The position numbers and the translations under genes are program-made. Shown in pieces: positions 134-59,255 of a stretch of 64,000 nt of DNA. How positions within the stretch are numbered: position 1 is the stretch's first letter; every line of letters begins with the position of its first letter. Source of the stretch: Candidatus Uabimicrobium amorphum (GTDB taxonomy: Bacteria > Planctomycetota > Uabimicrobiia > Uabimicrobiales > Uabimicrobiaceae); the NCBI RefSeq assembly GCF_009002475.1, contig NZ_AP019860.1, positions 8,305,547 to 8,369,546 of the forward strand. Reading direction: 5' to 3'. The notes below the pieces were generated by a model, which did not search any database, was not told the origin of the DNA, and was given only the letters and a program-made list of their open reading frames with translations.

Positions 134-183
134 TTTGGCGATAAAGTACCTTTCATTTCTGATCAGAATTGGGAACGTAATGT

Positions 184-927
184 TTAAGAATTGGTAAATG
201 ATACATATTCTTCTGGTGTCCCGAAAAATATTACATCATCTTTTGGGATTAATTTATAGTAAATATTCGCTCCACTAGAAATAGCAGTATTGTATAAGGG
301 AGCGACATATCTTTCGCCTCCTTGTAAATGTGTTGGATTTACATTTTCAATGGTGGAGTAAAGATCAAGATAAAAGGCAACGGATTTAAAATAATATAGA
401 CCTGTACTACAGAAGTCAGATATTCTATTTTTTTCGGTAACATAAATTGCTTTGCCAATAGAAGCGCTTTTGTCAACTGGTTTCACAAATGACCAATGAT
501 GACCACTTCCACAAAAAACTTCGATATATCCATCTACATTTTTCTGGCGGAACTCTTTTGGAAACTTGTAATTCGGACGCATGGTATCTATATTAAAAAT
601 TGTTATTGGTTCCGAAGTAGCAACAGTTGTTTTTTTTAGCCCAATAGCTACCGTCTCGGCTTGACCAGACGTTTCAGAATTTAGAATACAAATCTTTAAG
701 TTGGTCGCGTTTAAGCCAATGCTGTTTAGTTCTGCGCGAATAAAGTTTTCACAGTTATAGGTATCTCTACATATAAACAAAAATTTTTCTGATGCATAGT
801 AGTTAGAAAAACTGGAAATAGCATGGGCAAACAAAGATTTATTTTTTGCCTGTAACATGTATTTTGGTTTCTCATATCCAGCTTGGCGAAAGCGGCTGCT
901 GGTACCCGCCATTGGTATTACAATCAT
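184..927 (-). CDS. Sugar-phosphate nucleotidyltransferase-like protein
   Basis: The 247-residue protein opens with a nucleotidyltransferase signature: MIVIPMAG, then S-R-F, then Y-E-K-P-K-Y. This matches the NTP-binding loop and lysine of GT-A-like NDP-sugar pyrophosphorylases. A metal-binding-type Asp follows in FNIDTMRP. Proteins of this family activate hexose phosphates, or act as capsular-polysaccharide nucleotidyltransferases, in the cytoplasm. A TTG six codons upstream (943-945) keeps the frame open, but the ATG at 925-927 gives the typical N-terminus and is preferred. It lies next to five sulfotransferase-like genes and several glycosyltransferases, which fits surface-glycan synthesis. 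The substrate cannot be read from sequence. Confidence 0.75.
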   Translation of the reverse strand: MIVIPMAGTSSRFRQAGYEKPKYMLQAKNKSLFAHAISSFSNYYASEKFLFICRDTYNCENFIRAELNSIGLNATNLKICILNSETSGQAETVAIGLKKTTVATSEPITIFNIDTMRPNYKFPKEFRQKNVDGYIEVFCGSGHHWSFVKPVDKSASIGKAIYVTEKNRISDFCSTGLYYFKSVAFYLDLYSTIENVNPTHLQGGERYVAPLYNTAISSGANIYYKLIPKDDVIFFGTPEEYVSFTNS

Positions 928-49121: not shown

Positions 49122-50333
49122 TTAATTCGATGACATGATACTTTTAATAATGTCGTGTAGTTTCTTCTCCAATTCCACCATTCCTTCCTCGGTGTTTGCA
49201 TACGCATTTACACGTTGTTGCTTAAAATCAAACGGTAACTTTTCAATGTCCTGCGTTAATAGTACGGTTGGTTTTTGCAAATGATGCGCAATCCCCACTT
49301 CAAATGCCACATTGGGATTTGTCTGCTCAAAACCTGGAACAGGACTTAAATCACCGATGATGAAGTTTGCTTTGTTAATACCTTCCTCTATTTCTTGCCA
49401 AATGTTCGCTGGCATAAAATTTTCATCTACGCGTACTGGCTGAAGTCGGTGCTCTTGGCACACGCGTTTAATGGCGTTGTAGGCACGATTAAAATGCATA
49501 TGAAAAGGCATAGCAATAAAAACAGTTCCCACAGGTGTTTTGTAAAGTTCCTTAGAAACAATATCCTTGATCTCACTTACCGAAATGCGTTTTTCAGGTT
49601 CGGCAACAAATATACGTTGCAATAATTCATCTAAACATTGCGGGATGTTGGGGAAATTGTTAAGTCTTTTATACTCTCCACCAATAATTACTTGAGCAGT
49701 AGAAAGTTCTTCATCTCCTTCAAAAGGATACTTTCCCGTTAACATATTGTATAAAGCAACTCCTAAACTCCATATATCTTGTTTGCAAGTAAGTGGATGT
49801 CGCGCAATCCATTCAGGGGCAGCATAACGGCCATCCATAAGCTCCTCACGGTACTCCTCATGACTATTGGTAACTTTATTTGCCAAGTTAAATCCACTGA
49901 GGTAAAAATCGTTTTCAGATACCAATAGGTTTTGCAAATGTATATTTTGGTGCACAACACCTTTTTGTTCGAGAAACTCCAGAACCTCGCACAAGTGCAA
50001 TGTATAAATAAGCGCTTGATCAATACTTATTTGTCCACCATCTTTCACAATGCGCTCAACAGATTTTAGCTTTTCACTGGGCCAATTAAAGACAAGGTAC
50101 ATCATCTTGCCGTCTTCAAATGCATCAAAAACGGGTAAAATATTTGAATGGTCTAACGTTCCCAAAAGCTGTGCCAAAAACTTTAACCTCTTCTGTAAAT
50201 CGGTATCACAAGAAGAAGGAGATGCTTCAATTACAACATCGCGTCCCAAATAGGGATGTCGTGCCGCATACAACATAGTTTTCTCTGTAGATCCAATACA
50301 CTTGATAACTTCGTAATGTCCGAGTTTTGCCAT
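49122..50333 (-). CDS. Pseudokinase fused to TIR/deoxyribosyltransferase-like domain
   Basis: 403 residues. The kinase fold covers about 7-260, but all three catalytic residues are lost: VAIK is VVIEA (E36), HRD is HQN (128-130) and DFG is SGF (146-148). Asn135 of the loop and the APEW segment remain. From about 266 the domain reads VFIAMPFHMHFN, ENFMPANIWQEIEEGI, NFIIGDLSP, NPNVAFEVGIAH (E345), KPTVLLTQ, PFDFKQQRV. This is the pattern of TIR-like/nucleoside deoxyribosyltransferase-like domains often linked to NAD or nucleotide cleavage. The ATG with GAAAGG upstream is chosen over a TTG 14 codons earlier. Soluble. Confidence 0.83.
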   Translation of the reverse strand: MAKLGHYEVIKCIGSTEKTMLYAARHPYLGRDVVIEASPSSCDTDLQKRLKFLAQLLGTLDHSNILPVFDAFEDGKMMYLVFNWPSEKLKSVERIVKDGGQISIDQALIYTLHLCEVLEFLEQKGVVHQNIHLQNLLVSENDFYLSGFNLANKVTNSHEEYREELMDGRYAAPEWIARHPLTCKQDIWSLGVALYNMLTGKYPFEGDEELSTAQVIIGGEYKRLNNFPNIPQCLDELLQRIFVAEPEKRISVSEIKDIVSKELYKTPVGTVFIAMPFHMHFNRAYNAIKRVCQEHRLQPVRVDENFMPANIWQEIEEGINKANFIIGDLSPVPGFEQTNPNVAFEVGIAHHLQKPTVLLTQDIEKLPFDFKQQRVNAYANTEEGMVELEKKLHDIIKSIMSSN

Positions 50334-50548
50334 TGCACACCTTTCTTTTATATTTTTAAAAATATTGTTTGACAAATCTGTAGTAAAAAGTGAAAATCAA
50401 ATATTAAGATATATAGAAAAAGTCATGGTGTAAGGTTAAAGATTGGTCTTTTCTAGATAACTTAATTCGTGCAGAATTTTATTATTAGTCTACACCAAAG
50501 TAGTTAATAAATCATACAAATTTATCTCAAAATTAAAGACAGTTAATT

Positions 50549-51019
50549 ATGCAAATACATATTCCTTCTCTGATTATCGGTTTTGTTATTGCTTTTATCA
50601 TCGCATCTATTTTTGTAATGATTGCATTTGAAATTCGCAAAAAAAGAGCATTGGCATTTACAAAGCGATTTGCAATTATATCCGAAGGTCTTAGTAGTTT
50701 AAAGGCTCTTTCTTTCCGCGTATGTAATCAGCTTCATCGTTTAAAATCAGAATCCGACCCAGAAGTTGTCAAAAAACATCTAAAAGGAGTAAATGTTATC
50801 TTCCAAAAGATGTCCGCAGGAATGATGCCTCCCACGGAAGAAATTGCACTTGAAGCACTTCAAGGACGCAGTGGATCTTCAGAAGAACGCGCGTACGAAG
50901 ATAGTAAAAAATTTCGTGACGATATTCGCTGGCTTAGACAACAAATCGAAAAAAACGGTGTGGAAGGTTTAAGTGAAGCGGAAAAAAGTGGTAAAAAATC
51001 ACAAGTAAAACTTGTCTAA
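50549..51019 (+). CDS. Small single-pass membrane protein
   Basis: 156 residues. One N-terminal membrane helix (about 8-28, IIGFVIAFIIASIFVMIAF) is followed by a basic stop-transfer run (EIRKKRALAF) and a cytoplasmic helical domain with a conserved-looking DDIRWLRQQIEKNG near the end. No family recognised. It is divergent from the pseudokinase-TIR gene (215-bp gap) and followed by a GC-rich hairpin. Confidence 0.65.
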   Translation: MQIHIPSLIIGFVIAFIIASIFVMIAFEIRKKRALAFTKRFAIISEGLSSLKALSFRVCNQLHRLKSESDPEVVKKHLKGVNVIFQKMSAGMMPPTEEIALEALQGRSGSSEERAYEDSKKFRDDIRWLRQQIEKNGVEGLSEAEKSGKKSQVKLV

Positions 51020-51397: not shown

Positions 51398-52348
51398 TTG
51401 GCTTTTCGCTCAGGAGAAGGCTTAAGATTGGCAGTACGAATTTTTACTCCGTGTTGTCTATCATTGTTCGCATTAAGTTTTTTTTGGAATCCACATCAGA
51501 TAATTCGTTCGTGCTCGATCGCTGGTTTGATTGGCTTTGGAACAAATTGGATCGCAATAAAAATGTTGTTTTGGCCACGGCATCCACGACCTATTTTTGG
51601 ACATGGATTGATTCCATCGCAACGAGATGACCTCATAGAGAAAATTACTTACGAAGTATCTGAAAAATTAATAAATGAAGAATTGATACGCAAAAAAATA
51701 GAAGACAGTGGTATATTACAACGCATCACTTTGTCATTAAATGAAAAGCTAAAAGAATTAACAAGCGATAAAGAATTTCAAGACGATACAAAAAAATTAC
51801 TAGCGAGTTATATAAAAAAAATTTCGGAAGATGCCGAATTTCGCGAACAAATAAAAAGTATTTCTGTATCTAAACTAGAAACTGTTGTCGGAAAAGTTTT
51901 TAAACGCAAACTGTTTTCAAAAGTCAAAGATGTATGGAAAATTCCTTTTGGCGATTTGGTAGATCGCATTGTAGATAAAGTTTCCGAACTTCTTATTTCC
52001 ATCATTGACGACATGGATATTGTACTAGAAAATATTCCACATACAATAGACACCCATAGCGAATCTATCGAAAATGTACTTTTAAAAATGCAAATGGGAT
52101 TAATTCAAGAAATAAATATTCGAAAAATAATCACAACTCAATTACAAACCATCTCTGCCGAACAACTAGAACAGGGATTTAGAGAATTCTCAGATGATAA
52201 ACTCACCTTCATAACTCTTTTGGGAGGAGTTTTAGGATTTGTAGGTGGATTTGTTATTATCTGGCCGATTATGTCTATTAGCTTTATGATAGTTGGTATT
52301 ATCGTACTAGTTTGTTTAGACAAACTAATTAGCGCAACGATGTCTTGA
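51398..52348 (+). CDS. DUF445 family membrane protein, 5' end uncertain
   Basis: 316 residues from a TTG. The DUF445 hallmark is clear: IAGLIGFGTNWIAIKMLFWP followed by GHGLIPSQRDDLIEKI, then long helices and a C-terminal pair of membrane segments (ITLLGGVLGFVGGFVIIW and on). The TTG has no ribosome site and starts inside what looks like coding sequence. The frame is open upstream to 51239 without ATG or GTG. An ATG at 51277 opens MEQLHNFY in another frame, joined to it one base later through a T-run at 51294-51298. A frameshift or sequence error is likely. Confidence 0.78.
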   Translation: MAFRSGEGLRLAVRIFTPCCLSLFALSFFWNPHQIIRSCSIAGLIGFGTNWIAIKMLFWPRHPRPIFGHGLIPSQRDDLIEKITYEVSEKLINEELIRKKIEDSGILQRITLSLNEKLKELTSDKEFQDDTKKLLASYIKKISEDAEFREQIKSISVSKLETVVGKVFKRKLFSKVKDVWKIPFGDLVDRIVDKVSELLISIIDDMDIVLENIPHTIDTHSESIENVLLKMQMGLIQEINIRKIITTQLQTISAEQLEQGFREFSDDKLTFITLLGGVLGFVGGFVIIWPIMSISFMIVGIIVLVCLDKLISATMS

Positions 52349-52420: not shown

Positions 52421-53515
52421 ATGAATCACAAGAAGGATCATCGCCACAAATATAAAAGAAAAAAGAGAAGGCAACCTACTAACCAGAGAAGTAGCAAAGT
52501 AAAGCACCTAATGCGTAAATACAATATGGACGAAGCTACGGCATTGGAAATTTCAACAGGAGTGGTTCCCATAGAACTGTGGTTGGAAAAGCAAAAGTTA
52601 TACAAACAAAATGCAATCGCCAAAAAGAAACTACAAACAGAGCTTAAAAAATTTACGCCAAACGGTACCCTATCGACAGAAAATGTCATGCAAATTTTAG
52701 AAGCGTCCTTCTCTCTAGACGAATACAAAAAACAATGCCAAAATTTTGTGGAAAAAGAAGAAGAAATACTACAATTGACCACAAAGTACAAAATGTCGAT
52801 CCCTATTGCAAAATCCATTATTGATGGCAAGTTTACTCTAGAAGAGTATTTTAAGGTAAATGAGATAAAAGAGGCACGCAAAAGCAAAGCTCTGCAAATA
52901 AGAAGTAATCATCCAGATATTCCACTCGAAACATGCTACAAGCTCGTGGACAATGATATTGATGTTGCCGAATATTTAGAGCGACAAAATCAAAAAGAAA
53001 AAAAACGTGGTGTCTGGTACAAAAACTACCTTAAAGACCGCTTGAGTGATAACGAACCACTCAATAATTACTTACAAAAATTAAAGAAGAGTAAAAGCCT
53101 CATTACTTTCCATTTATACGATATGAAATCAAAAATAGGTACTGTACATTCATACACACCATACGAACTAAAAGTATTTTCAAATCGTAAACTCATCACG
53201 ATACCAAAACTCGATATAAAATACTTTTGTCGTGATCGGAACAATGAACTAATACTCAAATCACTAACGATAAACCGCGATTTGCAAAAGTCACCTATTC
53301 TTCCTAGCAAAAACCCCAAAGAAAGGTTTAAATTACCTATAGAAGAGCTAAAAAAAGGTACAAAGTTGCAACTTATTCTCGGCGAAGGAGAACAAATCGT
53401 CGGCTACATAGATTGGTTTTCAAAATACGATTTAAAACTAAAGTTACAACCAAATTCGCGCCATAGTGTGATGGTTTTCCAACATGCAATTACAGATGCC
53501 AAAATTCTATCATGA
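52421..53515 (+). CDS. Tandem Hfq/Sm-like protein with helical repeats
   Basis: 364 residues. A very basic N-terminus (about 1-25) is followed by at least three ~25-residue helical repeats with a K-Y-x-M...A...I...G...E-x-Y/W-L pattern (KYNMDEATALEISTG, KYKMSIPIAKSIIDG, NHPDIPLETCYKLVD), with a fourth possible (LSTENVMQILEASFSLDEY). Two Sm folds follow: about 211-268 (YLQKLKKSKSLITFHLYDMK) and 305-364 (GEGEQIVGYIDWFSKYDLKL, then VMVFQHAI, which closely matches the Hfq Sm2 motif YKHAI). Likely an RNA-binding protein. Its stop overlaps the next gene's ATG (ATGA). Confidence 0.75.
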   Translation: MNHKKDHRHKYKRKKRRQPTNQRSSKVKHLMRKYNMDEATALEISTGVVPIELWLEKQKLYKQNAIAKKKLQTELKKFTPNGTLSTENVMQILEASFSLDEYKKQCQNFVEKEEEILQLTTKYKMSIPIAKSIIDGKFTLEEYFKVNEIKEARKSKALQIRSNHPDIPLETCYKLVDNDIDVAEYLERQNQKEKKRGVWYKNYLKDRLSDNEPLNNYLQKLKKSKSLITFHLYDMKSKIGTVHSYTPYELKVFSNRKLITIPKLDIKYFCRDRNNELILKSLTINRDLQKSPILPSKNPKERFKLPIEELKKGTKLQLILGEGEQIVGYIDWFSKYDLKLKLQPNSRHSVMVFQHAITDAKILS

Positions 53516-54996
53516 CCGTAAATTTTCCCGATTTTATCGATACATACTACAAAACACTTTCGCAAGACCTTAATGTAGAAAAACGAAGCATTGCCGTGGG
53601 TGAAGTATTTTTTAAAACGATCTCATTCATCGGCAAACTGCATTTGTTGGAATATGCGCAGTTTGAGGAAAAAGACGAACAATTTCATTATTGGTTATTT
53701 TCACAATTTAATCACCGAAGTATTGAAGACTGGACAAAAATATTTGCTCATGTAGCAGAATACGACAAAACGGTTCTTTCCTTACAAGAGTTTGCAGAAA
53801 TATTTGATACGGTTTCCTTTCAAGAGCGTTTTACGCGATTAAAATGGTTCTATGAGGTAATTGAACTCAACAAAAATTTAGCATCGATTTCCGATGTATA
53901 CGAAGCGCAAGAGCACTTACAATTCTTGCCTTCTTTGTTGGGGTTTATTGCAAAAAAGAAATATGAAGTAAAAGATGGCAAAACGTTTGTCAAACACAAC
54001 AATAGAATACTATCAATGTCCCCATTTTTTGCTGCCAAACTAATAGGTAGTGAGGGACTTCGTTTGTATGAAACAAACTGCAGCATGAAAGACTTTCACA
54101 AAGAACGGCTAACGCAAAGTTATCGGAAATACCAGGCGGAAAAAAAAGGAATTATTGACTTTACTCATCGTAATAATGACGATGTAATTATCATGCCGTG
54201 GATTGAAAATTTTTTAGAACAAACTCTAGATGATATTTTTAGCTTACCGCCGAGTATAAAAATCAAAACCATCATGATAGAAGGTGCCCCTGCAACCGGT
54301 AAAACAACACTGTGCTCTCACATAGAGTATCCACAAGCGGACTATGTGTGTAAATACTACATATCTCCGCAAACCATTTACCAAGATAGTGCGACATTTA
54401 AATTTTGGTTTTATCGTAACCTAAAAAATGTTTTCGATGTCCAACAAAATATTGTAGAAATACAAGACTTAGATATAATGCTTGCCCCTGGCTGGCAACA
54501 ACTTAGAAAAAAAATAGCCAGCGATAACAAAAAAGTTATATGTTGCATCGACGGCATAAATTTTATGCCACAAAAAGAGTTTAAGCGTTTTTTAAATTTT
54601 GTAAACGATGATCTTTTTTGTAATATAGTGTTTGTCTTCTTTGGTAGGTCACACAGTAAAAATAAAATAGATACCACATATAAAATTTGTTTACAGCCAA
54701 AAGACAACGCTTTTTTTGAAGAAGCCTTTGATGAAGAATATGTAGAGAGTTTGCACTCTACTTACTTGCAGGATGAAACCACGCAAAAAATTTTCCAATA
54801 CATATTACAAACGCAAAAAAAATTTTCCGTAAAAGATTTATCGGAAGAACTAGAAATTCACACCTATAAAGTGATAAAATGTATTAAGAACATCAAGCCT
54901 TTGATAAATGATAGCCAGATAAAAAAAACGTTAGAACAAATTGTAAAATATACATGCGAACATGATGAGCTTAAAGCAAAATTAATGATGGAGTAG
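53512..54996 (+). CDS. STAND-like P-loop ATPase
   Basis: 494 residues. A ~250-residue helical N-domain without recognised motif precedes an NTPase core with Walker A GAPATGKTT (258-266) and Walker B VICCIDGIN (about Asp344), then a sensor-type VFVFFGRS. The C-terminal ~80 residues read as winged helix (KFSVKDLSEELEIHTYKVIK). The layout suits AAA/STAND signalling ATPases that oligomerise on activation. It overlaps the upstream Hfq-like gene by 4 bp and lies 5 bp before the coiled-coil membrane protein, so the three form one translational unit. Confidence 0.75.
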   Translation: MTVNFPDFIDTYYKTLSQDLNVEKRSIAVGEVFFKTISFIGKLHLLEYAQFEEKDEQFHYWLFSQFNHRSIEDWTKIFAHVAEYDKTVLSLQEFAEIFDTVSFQERFTRLKWFYEVIELNKNLASISDVYEAQEHLQFLPSLLGFIAKKKYEVKDGKTFVKHNNRILSMSPFFAAKLIGSEGLRLYETNCSMKDFHKERLTQSYRKYQAEKKGIIDFTHRNNDDVIIMPWIENFLEQTLDDIFSLPPSIKIKTIMIEGAPATGKTTLCSHIEYPQADYVCKYYISPQTIYQDSATFKFWFYRNLKNVFDVQQNIVEIQDLDIMLAPGWQQLRKKIASDNKKVICCIDGINFMPQKEFKRFLNFVNDDLFCNIVFVFFGRSHSKNKIDTTYKICLQPKDNAFFEEAFDEEYVESLHSTYLQDETTQKIFQYILQTQKKFSVKDLSEELEIHTYKVIKCIKNIKPLINDSQIKKTLEQIVKYTCEHDELKAKLMME

Positions 54997-55001
54997 CAGT
55001 G

Positions 55002-58000
55002 ATGAACAAAGAAATTACGTTTCAGGAATGTTGTAGCTTTATTTATGCCGCTAAACAATATTGCTTGTTTCACGATAAAAATTTAACTGAAGAATTACTT
55101 GCTGACTTCAAAAATAATCATGTTCTTGTTTTGGAAGAAGATAAAGAACAATATCTCGTAGTACACACTGAAAATGAAATCATCGAATATCATTTTGCCG
55201 ATGGTGCGTTTATCGAAGACAATAGCATGTCTTTGGGTTTTAAAGATTCATTGTGTGATCGTAAAGCCTCTTGCTACGCTATTGAAATTCAAAACCTCAA
55301 CTACTTCTTAAATGCTAATCCCGGCACACTCTCTACCATACACGAAGAAATAGACTTTGAACTTGCCCTACGGTTACGCAATAGTTTTTTCACAAGCCCA
55401 GATGTTGTCTACGTCATATTTATTTGGGAAAACGGATCTATGTTGTTGTGCCAAAAAAGCGATCAAAAAGATGACTTTTTCTTTGGCCATAAAAATGAAC
55501 TCATCCGCGATCAAAAAGCATTGGAAAAAATACGTGAAGAACTAGGCAATGTACCTTGTTCATTGAAAGTTCTCAAATCAAAACCCGATGAGAACTATGT
55601 CGATTTAGATCCAGACAGTGAACAACAAAGTAGCTTTGACGCTGGAATGATGGTGGTAGAAATGGACATTCCGCGCAGTAAACCCAACCTAGAAACAATA
55701 GGTGATAATGTCTCCATCAAAGAAGATTCAATCGTCACCTTGGACGAACCACTGCCCCCTTTGACATCAGGTGACATGGAAATTTTGAGCAAGTATGGCA
55801 TTGACACCATTAAGAAAAAAGATCTCAACAAGGGTATTTTCGAAGGCTCGGTGGTCATACGCGATGAAGAACTGCCACAGTTAGGCCCAGATGACATTGA
55901 AGTTCTAAAAAAATACGGAATTGAAATCCCCAGCGGTGCAGGCTTAGAGGAAGAAGAGGAAGAAGAGTTCCTAAGTAGCAAACAATTTGTATTCGAAGAA
56001 TCACAAATCCCTCTTGACGAAGAGTTGCCAAGTCTCGGCCACGAAGAAGTAGAAATTTTCAAAAAATACGGAGTAGAAATCAATAGCGAAGAAAAAACAA
56101 CTCCACGCTCCATACGCGAAGCTTTTGAAGACTCTGTTGTCGTTAAAGACCAAGAACTTCCGGCCCTCAATCCCGCAGATGTCGACATTCTCAATAAATA
56201 TGGAATCACCTTAGCCCCAGTAACCAAAAAAGAAAAACAAACAAAAAAGGTATCGCGAACACAAACCAGCAAACGCGTAGAGAAACCTCAACCACCAAAA
56301 ACAACGTCTCCAGCAAAGCCAGCAGCAAAACGCATTCCGATAAAACAGTATTTGACACCACAAAATTTAAAAATCGTTGGCGCCTCGGTAGCGGCTCTTG
56401 TCGTCGTTTACTTTGCTCTGGTTATGTACAAAAACTACGACGAACGCCAAACAACCGTCAGTGCCTGCAATGAAATTATCGCTCAATTAGACTCCTACAC
56501 CGAAGATGTCAAAGGAAAAACCACAGAAGTATTGGGCATTGTCGGCGAAGTGAAGAAAAAATTTCCTTCAAAATTGGGCTTTCCCGAACCAAGTCCAAAA
56601 ATTACCACCGAAGTGGAACGCATCCGCGAACAAATAAAACAGATGAAGGGCACAATCACCGAAGCCAATCGAATGATTGGAGAAGGGAAAGAAAAAGAAG
56701 CACAGGCTTTTCTCGAAGAAAAGTTTAGCGATTACAACGAAGATAAGTATAAAAACAAAATCGCAAAAACCATCGACAATCTGAAACTCAAGGCGAACCA
56801 TACACTAACGATGGCAAAGTATATGAATAATATTCGCGTACAAGAATCTTCCGTACGCCGCGTCTTGAGAAAACTACGTGAAAATATCATTCTTTTTTCT
56901 CAATTGTACAAGTCGTTAAATGGTAAACTCATTATTATAAAAGAAAAATATACCGGGGAAGGTTATCCGCCGCCACCACCAAAGAGCAAAAAACTCGCCG
57001 TGGATATGAAGAAGGATCTCGACACTTGGCAAACATCTTTGAACAAAATCGAAAAACTACTTTTTGCCGATAATCTCACTACGGCACTGGAAAACAGTAA
57101 TACCTACAAAGATTTACAATCGCCAAATGGAACCGAAGCCAAGAGTATGATCGAAGACGTAGATCAAACTCTAAGACTTTGCGAAGCCAGCGCGCTGAAA
57201 AAAGAACGTAAAGCACAATATCTCGTTCTTCTAAACGGTGCACAAAAGCGTGTTAGTTCGATAGAAAGCGAGCTAAAAACACTCAGCGCCGACCTTGTGA
57301 CACTAGAAGGTTTTGGTAATGATTTAGATATTCCAAAAGAAACAAAGAAAACTCTGGAAATTAAGTCTACGGCAGAAAAAGAATTGGTGGATATCGGAAA
57401 AGTCATTGATGCCAGCCGTAAGTATATATATGCTGGTCAAGTGAAACAAGCTCTCGAAGAAATCAGTAAAGTTTCCGAAGATGCCACCTTGTTAATTTCG
57501 CTAAAACAAGTTAGAGAAAACACCGCGGATACCGTAAAAATTGCTCAGAGCATGAAAGAAAAAAGCGAAAAAGGTTTGCGTGTCGTAATGCTACTACAAA
57601 AAGTAAAAAAGCAGTTGCTACCGCTCACCGATCTAACCTCTCTATTGCAAGACAAACTGAATTACGTATATACAACCTTCGAGCCCAATAGAGAATTGAA
57701 AAGATTCTATCGCAACGGTAAAACACACGTCGCCAAAGCCAAGAGAATGATCGCCCAGCTAAATTCTGTTTCAAACAAGGTCAACAAAAAAATCGAACAA
57801 GAAAACCTTGACGACGCGATCTATATTTTACAAAGCTCTATGTCTCTGACTTCTTCCTCTGAAAGCTATATATCCAAAACTCAGAAATACCTAAAAGAGT
57901 CAGAAAGTATCATCGAAAAAGCCGAACAACTCAAATACGAAAAAGAACAAACAGCGATACTCAAACGTTATATTGTCAAAATCTCTGACTATACCAAGCA

Positions 58001-59255
58001 AATGCAAGAAAATATCGAGCCATTACAGCGCCAAATCGAAATGATGGACACACGCTACCCTGCATCAGAAGGTTACTCAGAGGTACCACAGAACGTCAAA
58101 GATAAATTGGCAACGAGTATTACTCTAGTAAAAGACTTAAAGAGTGCGGTTGACCAAGGGAAACAACTGAAGAAAGAAAAAGACTGGGACCAAGCGAAGA
58201 ATTTATTGAGTCGCTATGCCAAAGAAAGTAAATTAACTCCTGAATTCTTAGCAGAGATAAGTAAGTATCGCTACGAAATACAGGACATGGTCACCGAAGC
58301 GATGAAAATTGGCAGCAATAAGAATAAAGTATTTCAAATCAAAGACACTCTACAAGTACTTAGCGATCGCCGCAAAGCATTTGAAGGCATAATTACGAAA
58401 ATGCAAGACGCGATCAAAAATTGGGACAAGAATTATCCGGAAGATTACTTCTTCAAACCACCCAGAACAGTTACCGGTATTTTGCCCAAAGCCGACATCG
58501 AATACAAAGAGCTTTTTGATGTCATCGCCGACGGTGAAGAAGGACTACAAACCGGTGAGTACGACAACTCACTACGCGGTTTAACGAGCTACATGCGCGA
58601 TGTGGACACGGTTCTCCCCGCGACCAAAATCGCCTGGGAAGATCTAAAGGAAGTACAAGACAAAAACGAAAAGCTACTCACGGATGAAGACTACAAAGCC
58701 GAAATTGTCGAAGAAAGGCAAATGGCTTCAGTATTAAAAGACATCAAAAAGAAGTGGAAACAATCTCCCGGTGTGTGGTACGACGACATACAAAGTGAGA
58801 TAAAGACCATAAACTCTATGATGTCCGACATACGACGTGCGCGCGTCCATCCACAAGTGATGGATGGTTTAAATCGCGGTTTAAATCAGATGAGCAACAT
58901 TCCTGATGAAATAGCGGACCTAGGCGTTATGGTTTACAAAATAGAGCGTTCTAAAAAACGCACTGTTGAAGAAATTATGAAGGAAAAGCTAGAAAAGACC
59001 TTCAATCCCGTTCAGAAAAAACAGATAAATCGTATCATAAACTTTTTACAAACCAAAAAAATAGACGTGCGGGATATCGAAGATCAAATGGCCAGACTGC
59101 GCAATGGTGTGCGAACATTGCAAGACAAAATAAACTCTTCAGCAAAAATTGAAAATCGTGCAATAGGAAACCTGTTCAACCCGATGGGCATCATTTTCCG
59201 CAAGTATGAAGAAACATTTAAAGCCGTACAATCAGAATTGACGAAATTGCGCTAA
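55002..59255 (+). CDS. 1417-residue membrane coiled-coil protein with KYGI repeats
   Basis: The N-terminal ~200 residues match no domain I recognise. Four copies of LPxLxxxDxxIxxKYGI/V start at residues 251, 291, 342 and 386, each after an acidic S-V-V/T-x-D/E lead-in. A Pro/Lys/Thr linker and one membrane helix (about 456-476, VGASVAALVVVYFALVMY) follow, then about 940 residues of nearly continuous coiled-coil. So a cytoplasmic regulatory part is joined to a long rod. The ATG at 55002 (GGAG upstream) is preferred to the preceding GTG. No known family. Confidence 0.75.
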   Translation: MNKEITFQECCSFIYAAKQYCLFHDKNLTEELLADFKNNHVLVLEEDKEQYLVVHTENEIIEYHFADGAFIEDNSMSLGFKDSLCDRKASCYAIEIQNLNYFLNANPGTLSTIHEEIDFELALRLRNSFFTSPDVVYVIFIWENGSMLLCQKSDQKDDFFFGHKNELIRDQKALEKIREELGNVPCSLKVLKSKPDENYVDLDPDSEQQSSFDAGMMVVEMDIPRSKPNLETIGDNVSIKEDSIVTLDEPLPPLTSGDMEILSKYGIDTIKKKDLNKGIFEGSVVIRDEELPQLGPDDIEVLKKYGIEIPSGAGLEEEEEEEFLSSKQFVFEESQIPLDEELPSLGHEEVEIFKKYGVEINSEEKTTPRSIREAFEDSVVVKDQELPALNPADVDILNKYGITLAPVTKKEKQTKKVSRTQTSKRVEKPQPPKTTSPAKPAAKRIPIKQYLTPQNLKIVGASVAALVVVYFALVMYKNYDERQTTVSACNEIIAQLDSYTEDVKGKTTEVLGIVGEVKKKFPSKLGFPEPSPKITTEVERIREQIKQMKGTITEANRMIGEGKEKEAQAFLEEKFSDYNEDKYKNKIAKTIDNLKLKANHTLTMAKYMNNIRVQESSVRRVLRKLRENIILFSQLYKSLNGKLIIIKEKYTGEGYPPPPPKSKKLAVDMKKDLDTWQTSLNKIEKLLFADNLTTALENSNTYKDLQSPNGTEAKSMIEDVDQTLRLCEASALKKERKAQYLVLLNGAQKRVSSIESELKTLSADLVTLEGFGNDLDIPKETKKTLEIKSTAEKELVDIGKVIDASRKYIYAGQVKQALEEISKVSEDATLLISLKQVRENTADTVKIAQSMKEKSEKGLRVVMLLQKVKKQLLPLTDLTSLLQDKLNYVYTTFEPNRELKRFYRNGKTHVAKAKRMIAQLNSVSNKVNKKIEQENLDDAIYILQSSMSLTSSSESYISKTQKYLKESESIIEKAEQLKYEKEQTAILKRYIVKISDYTKQMQENIEPLQRQIEMMDTRYPASEGYSEVPQNVKDKLATSITLVKDLKSAVDQGKQLKKEKDWDQAKNLLSRYAKESKLTPEFLAEISKYRYEIQDMVTEAMKIGSNKNKVFQIKDTLQVLSDRRKAFEGIITKMQDAIKNWDKNYPEDYFFKPPRTVTGILPKADIEYKELFDVIADGEEGLQTGEYDNSLRGLTSYMRDVDTVLPATKIAWEDLKEVQDKNEKLLTDEDYKAEIVEERQMASVLKDIKKKWKQSPGVWYDDIQSEIKTINSMMSDIRRARVHPQVMDGLNRGLNQMSNIPDEIADLGVMVYKIERSKKRTVEEIMKEKLEKTFNPVQKKQINRIINFLQTKKIDVRDIEDQMARLRNGVRTLQDKINSSAKIENRAIGNLFNPMGIIFRKYEETFKAVQSELTKLR

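Follow-up and report, generated by a model that had tools for sequence, protein, structure and literature searches.

Can the ring of Hfq be built from chains that each carry two Sm domains, and is such a chain kept by a bacterium in which ordinary Hfq is not found? The question is raised by a gene in a 64,000-nucleotide stretch (below, the window) of the genome of Candidatus Uabimicrobium amorphum (contig NZ_AP019860.1, positions 8,305,547 to 8,369,546); Uabimicrobium are predatory bacteria that engulf cells in a phagocytosis-like manner. Hfq is known to assemble six copies of one short subunit into a ring. The 364-residue product of our gene, referred to as the tandem-Hfq protein, ends with two domains, both of which are Hfq-type Sm folds, as judged by profile comparison and by predicted models. 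The fold itself is ordinary; the architecture and the distribution are unusual. The open reading frame is a genuine conserved gene judging by its alignment with relatives, and its layout is as follows (window coordinates; helices taken from the AlphaFold2 (AF2) model).

52421..53515, plus strand: tandem-Hfq protein, 364 amino acids, long-type family member; ATG start; conserved over the full length (33-40% identity) in four other genomes of the order.
52421..52483, plus strand: N-terminal tail, residues 1-21, basic and predicted to be disordered (local confidence score pLDDT <50 at residues 1-19).
52484..53038, plus strand: four helical repeats, according to the AF2 model and to matches of the repeat profile.
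Residues 38-45, 86-94, 127-134 and 169-177, plus strand: short helices of the repeats.
Residues 51-78, 99-123, 140-163 and 182-206, plus strand: long helices of the repeats.
53045..53233, plus strand: Sm domain 1 (Sm1), residues 209-271, predicted Hfq type, with an N-terminal helix (212-224) and five strands.
53234..53332, plus strand: linker between the Sm domains, residues 272-304, with the invariant R302 (family alignment and AF2 model).
53333..53512, plus strand: Sm domain 2 (Sm2), residues 305-364, predicted Hfq type, with the EGE and V-F-(R/Q)-H-A motifs.

The first-pass annotation, made from the letters of the sequence, claimed that the C-terminal residues follow the Hfq pattern, and this is borne out. 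Sm2 matches the Pfam family Hfq (PF17209) over residues 311-358 with E=2e-4 and 21.4 bits (cut-off 27), and the NCBIfam family Hfq (TIGR02383) with E=1.2e-4 and 21.8 bits (cut-off 61.7), i.e., the protein lies below the curated Hfq cut-offs of both. Among the 14 family members considered, PF17209 is found in 11 (best 3e-8) and PF21979 “Hfq related” in 12 at E<=1. Searched with the full family profile, the archaeal Hfq MJ1435 is matched at 5e-8, and with Sm2 alone at 2e-8; bacterial Hfqs are matched as well. The hhalign comparison of Sm2 with five Hfq sequences gives 97% and an E-value of 6e-11, which, like all hhalign E-values, refers to a single comparison; four of the five Hfq rows were entered by hand, and the MJ1435 row is the segment aligned in the profile search. 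The second domain also carries the Hfq-type Sm2 motif (Y/F-K/R-H-A-I), and at the sequence level the C-terminal Hfq motif is beyond chance.

Sm1 has no match to Hfq by a single-sequence hidden Markov model search, whereas Sm2 alone reaches Hfq this way, below the curated cut-off. Nevertheless, hhalign relates Sm1 to Sm2 at 96% (score 42.5) and to Hfq at 70% (score 26.1), against best scores of 16.8 and 14.6, respectively, in 100 column-shuffled controls. The top sequence match of Sm1 in PDB is the Hfq of S. aureus (E 0.03). Modelled alone, the Sm1 stretch retains its helix and five strands, and 50 of the 50 listed structural matches in PDB are Hfq (root-mean-square deviation (rmsd) about 1-2.6 Å, TM score by target 0.75-0.90); these matches span about 60 residues, the N-terminal helix included. 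The top structural matches of the full model are mostly Hfq as well. The helix NEPLNNYLQKLKK stands before Sm1 at the place of QDPFLNALRRER in Hfq, a likeness judged by eye, and one relative (L058) retains F-K-H in Sm1, cf. Y-K-H of Hfq. In the predicted models the N-terminal helix and the five-stranded bent barrel of the Sm/Hfq fold superfamily are present, the AF2 model having five strands per Sm domain at pLDDT of about 87-95. Thus, the second and more diverged Sm fold that had been placed before the last one stands up both to profile comparison and to structure prediction, which gave two five-stranded Sm folds and not some other fold.

Which RNA-binding surface of Hfq would such a protein keep? 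The residues of the 14 members were mapped on E. coli Hfq, and the register was fixed manually at the conserved Gly34 and the K/R-H motif. In Hfq, the residues F42, K56, H57 and Q8 take part in the binding of U on the proximal face (PMC10628458, PMC4337610). Position 42 is aromatic (Tyr, Phe or Trp) in all members in both domains; position 56 is Lys or Arg in 14/14 in Sm1, and Arg (12/14) or Gln (2/14) in Sm2; His57 is found in Sm2 of all 14 and in Sm1 of two. The proximal U pocket (Q8, F42, K56, H57) is mostly retained, being split across Sm1 and Sm2. The distal-face A-R-N site of Hfq, which we take to be formed by Y25, G29, I30 and L32, looks different: position 30 is Glu or Asp in Sm2 of 14/14 members and Y25 is not retained; MJ1435 also has Glu at position 30. 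As far as the alignment goes, the proximal (U-binding) pocket is for the most part retained, in a form complementary between the domains, and the distal one is not.

A separate observation concerns Lys267 (53219-53221), at position 60 of Sm1 in strand 5, the site of Ser60 in Hfq: it is invariant (14/14) and is followed by Tyr, Phe or Leu. We know of no role of the equivalent position in Hfq.

Who possesses the protein? The sample consisted of 392 Planctomycetota genomes, and other phyla were covered by one pattern scan. The family occurs in 10 of the 392 (best E of the core profile <=4e-57). In all six sampled genomes of the order it is present as long and short paralogs: the long forms have 364-392 amino acids (the modelled window protein shows four repeats), and the short-type forms have two repeats. 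The paralog in the window organism (L002, 294 amino acids) lies 152 kb from our gene and is 32% identical to its product (4e-26). Single copies occur in four distant genomes (L008, L009, L058, L059). A more sensitive core profile run over the sampled genomes and searches around G081 and G033 gave no additional genomes, the order-level alignment search gave none beyond those already found, and a single-protein scan of the genome contigs gave no match. The plasmids, phages and viral contigs searched contained no member, so that an origin from a mobile element is unsupported. The family is small, previously unnamed and, by these profile searches, Planctomycetota-wide but rare. A literature search found no report of a tandem Hfq or of Hfq in Planctomycetota. 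Species with two hfq copies are listed in PMC3474761, as two separate genes and not as one chain; a fused copy may exist elsewhere.

Canonical Hfq above the PF17209 cut-off was found in none of the 392 genomes; the sole match above 27 bits is itself a family member (L012/L021, 28.7), and a control search over named genomes was positive where Hfq is known. The window genome has no canonical Hfq above the cut-off and no ProQ match. The family, at 10/392, is too rare to replace Hfq across the whole phylum. Apart from the relatives, the other planctomycete sub-threshold Hfq matches appear to be noise or small-barrel “LKNG..xG” domains of no relation and were set aside. Secreted-looking planctomycete proteins with the small-barrel motif “TVFLKNGHVINGKV” (L031, L034, L036 and similar) give sub-threshold Hfq matches, and in Planctomycetota an Hfq search picks up false positives from proteins of this kind. 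Weak Hfq matches also come from a small Sm/SH3-like stretch (SISLTNGKFIRGYVTKIGKDSFSLKD..., QSITLSTVDGRQIRGVVTRVAKNKCLIED...) in two proteins, one kinase-PQQ-like and one secreted-looking (L016 and L017; contig C1, about 759,500 and 8,441,300).

We presume, with a confidence somewhat above even, that the protein is an Hfq-like proximal-face RNA binder that forms a pseudo-hexameric ring of two-domain chains and serves as an RNA chaperone or stabilising factor. Three chains would close into a six-domain ring with Sm1 and Sm2 alternating. The proximal pocket would be shared out between them: Lys/Arg56 from Sm1, Arg/Gln56 and the invariant His57 from Sm2, and the aromatic residue 42 from both. Since the split proximal pocket is mostly retained, the ring is expected to bind, around its pore, the 3' ends of U-rich single-stranded RNA. 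The distal site for A-rich RNA would have been lost (cf. the same position in MJ1435), and the basic tail with the repeats could offer RNA or proteins a second binding surface where Hfq has its distal face and rim. The role would be that of an RNA chaperone or RNA-stabilising factor where ordinary Hfq or ProQ is absent, and the product of the overlapping downstream gene, a P-loop nucleoside triphosphatase (NTPase), may be a partner. The parts of this proposal differ in strength: RNA binding seems likely, a ring of three chains is somewhat favoured, and for the chaperone or stabilising role the case is evenly balanced.

Several facts weigh against it. Sm1 is without His57 in 12/14 members, and Gln8, the base-reading residue of Hfq, has no clear counterpart in Sm2. 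The linker of about 40 residues between Sm1 and Sm2 is compatible with other assemblies too, and the full AF2 model has a predicted TM score (pTM) of 0.47, i.e., the placement of the domains is not fixed by it. The window genome is a single 9.50-Mb contig with a completeness of 86.65%, which makes the absence of Hfq and ProQ from the organism likely, not certain. A bolder version, in which the protein is an Hfq substitute evolved in Planctomycetota, with a covalently paired ring of two alternating pockets and a repeat arm, and acts as a global chaperone of Uabimicrobiales together with a dedicated P-loop NTPase, is offered as speculation that we hold rather unlikely.

Compared with the known systems, bacterial Hfq (PF17209/TIGR02383) has in common with our protein the Sm fold, the helix before strand 1 of Sm1, the proximal aromatic residue, K/R56 and the His57 motif; however, it is a short single Sm domain, whereas the window protein has two Sm domains, N-terminal repeats with a basic tail, and no distal-face motif. 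Among solved structures, the one closest to Sm2 by sequence (E 2e-8) is MJ1435 of Methanocaldococcus jannaschii (PDB 2qtx, 5dy9), which shares the (N/E)-G-E turn and the V-F-(K/R)-H-A motif but is a single domain of 71 amino acids. The “Hfq related” family PF21979 (Hfq_1) gives weak matches in 12 of the 14 tandem-Hfq members (best 9e-5), below the cut-off where scores are shown. The archaeal and eukaryotic Sm and Lsm proteins share the superfamily fold and form rings; Sm2 differs from them by its Hfq-type His motif, and none of them is among the sequence or fold matches listed. A tandem Hfq with U-pocket residues divided between two diverged domains would provide a natural experiment on the specialisation of Sm rings that follows duplication, and in some Planctomycetota, the phagocytosis-like Uabimicrobium among them, the family is a candidate to stand in for Hfq.

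The same pocket pattern can be read otherwise. With one conserved face and no distal face, protection of RNA 3' ends is suggested over the annealing of two RNAs, and the protein could be a ring-forming RNA binder of a stable ribonucleoprotein (in rRNA/tRNA maturation, mRNA decay or on the ribosome) and not a matchmaker of small RNA and mRNA. In three genomes the short-type genes have housekeeping surroundings, lying between a metabolic gene, that of aldehyde dehydrogenase, and recJ (names by eye), and a search of the window for RNA families found none; however, gene context does not tell which RNA is targeted, and a second RNA site could come from the basic tail and repeats. We consider this explanation rather unlikely. 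The cluster in these genomes (L068, L069, L070) comprises, by eye, genes for secD-like, small secreted/LysM-like and microcompartment-shell-like proteins, aldehyde dehydrogenase, the short tandem-Hfq protein and recJ.

As to the N-terminal part, the first 40 residues contain 15 K/R and 3 D/E, and the basic tail reported in the first-pass annotation is real. Its three or four helical repeats exist too and number four, but the period of about 25 residues was wrong: the unit is a long and a short helix of about 37-48 residues, with the consensus LxxxxGLPxxxAxxVxxGKxTLExAL. The repeat profile matches residues 25-47, 112-148 and 153-191, the last two stretches and L058 having been in its seed; repeat 2 is without a profile match in the window protein and is based on the model and on the ortholog L004. 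The relative L058 has six tandem copies of 37 amino acids, and the number across the family is 2-6. Clear copies in the genome are confined to the two paralogs. Matches to DNA polymerase IV were dismissed (domain i-Evalue 2.7 or worse), and a comparison of the repeat with solved structures gave no convincing relative.

The neighbouring genes are the following.

50549..51019, plus strand: 156-amino-acid protein with a membrane helix at its N-terminus (by eye), 56% identical to its counterpart in the related genome L067.
51398..52348, plus strand: DUF445 membrane protein (Pfam PF04286, 4e-25); a 387-amino-acid reading frame at the same position in L067 is alike by eye.
53512..54996, plus strand: P-loop (AAA/STAND-like) protein, 494 amino acids; its ATG overlaps the stop codon of the tandem-Hfq gene (ATGA).
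54999..59255, plus strand: 1418-amino-acid protein in which a single membrane helix and a long region resembling a coiled coil are seen by eye; the L067 counterpart is 27% identical (3e-137).

The Sm domains could instead be a protein scaffold of this membrane-linked operon (DUF445, P-loop NTPase, 1418-amino-acid protein), RNA binding being secondary or lost. In L067 the genes follow one another as they do here (membrane protein, DUF445, tandem-Hfq, P-loop, large coiled protein), a P-loop homolog lies directly downstream of the ortholog both there (28%, 2e-54) and in L066 (26%, 6e-45), and the variable number of repeats resembles a protein-binding solenoid. However, the neighbourhood is not conserved around the short-type paralogs or in L065, the RNA-pocket residues (the His57 equivalent, aromatic 42, Lys/Arg56) are among the most conserved, and K/R exceeds D/E in 13 of the 14 members; we regard the scaffold as improbable. 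That the domains are not Hfq at all and are two generic small beta-barrels (SH3/Tudor/KOW-like) resembling it by convergence is highly improbable: Tudor and KOW do appear among the fold matches of the full model, with poor rmsd, and planctomycete small barrels do yield sub-threshold Hfq matches, but the Hfq-specific sequence signals, the His57 motif included, and the uniformly Hfq structural matches of Sm1 over its helix and barrel speak against it.

A scan of the window for the exact sigma-70 consensus gave no match and is uninformative. The 1418-amino-acid protein has in its first 420 residues four linear motifs like “DEELPxLxxxDxExLxKYGI”, which recur in the L067 homolog. The product of the minus-strand gene at 49122-50375 joins a Ser/Thr protein kinase to a C-terminal domain that resembles nucleoside 2-deoxyribosyltransferase (residues 296-380; PF05014 at E 2.5e-5, below the cut-off).
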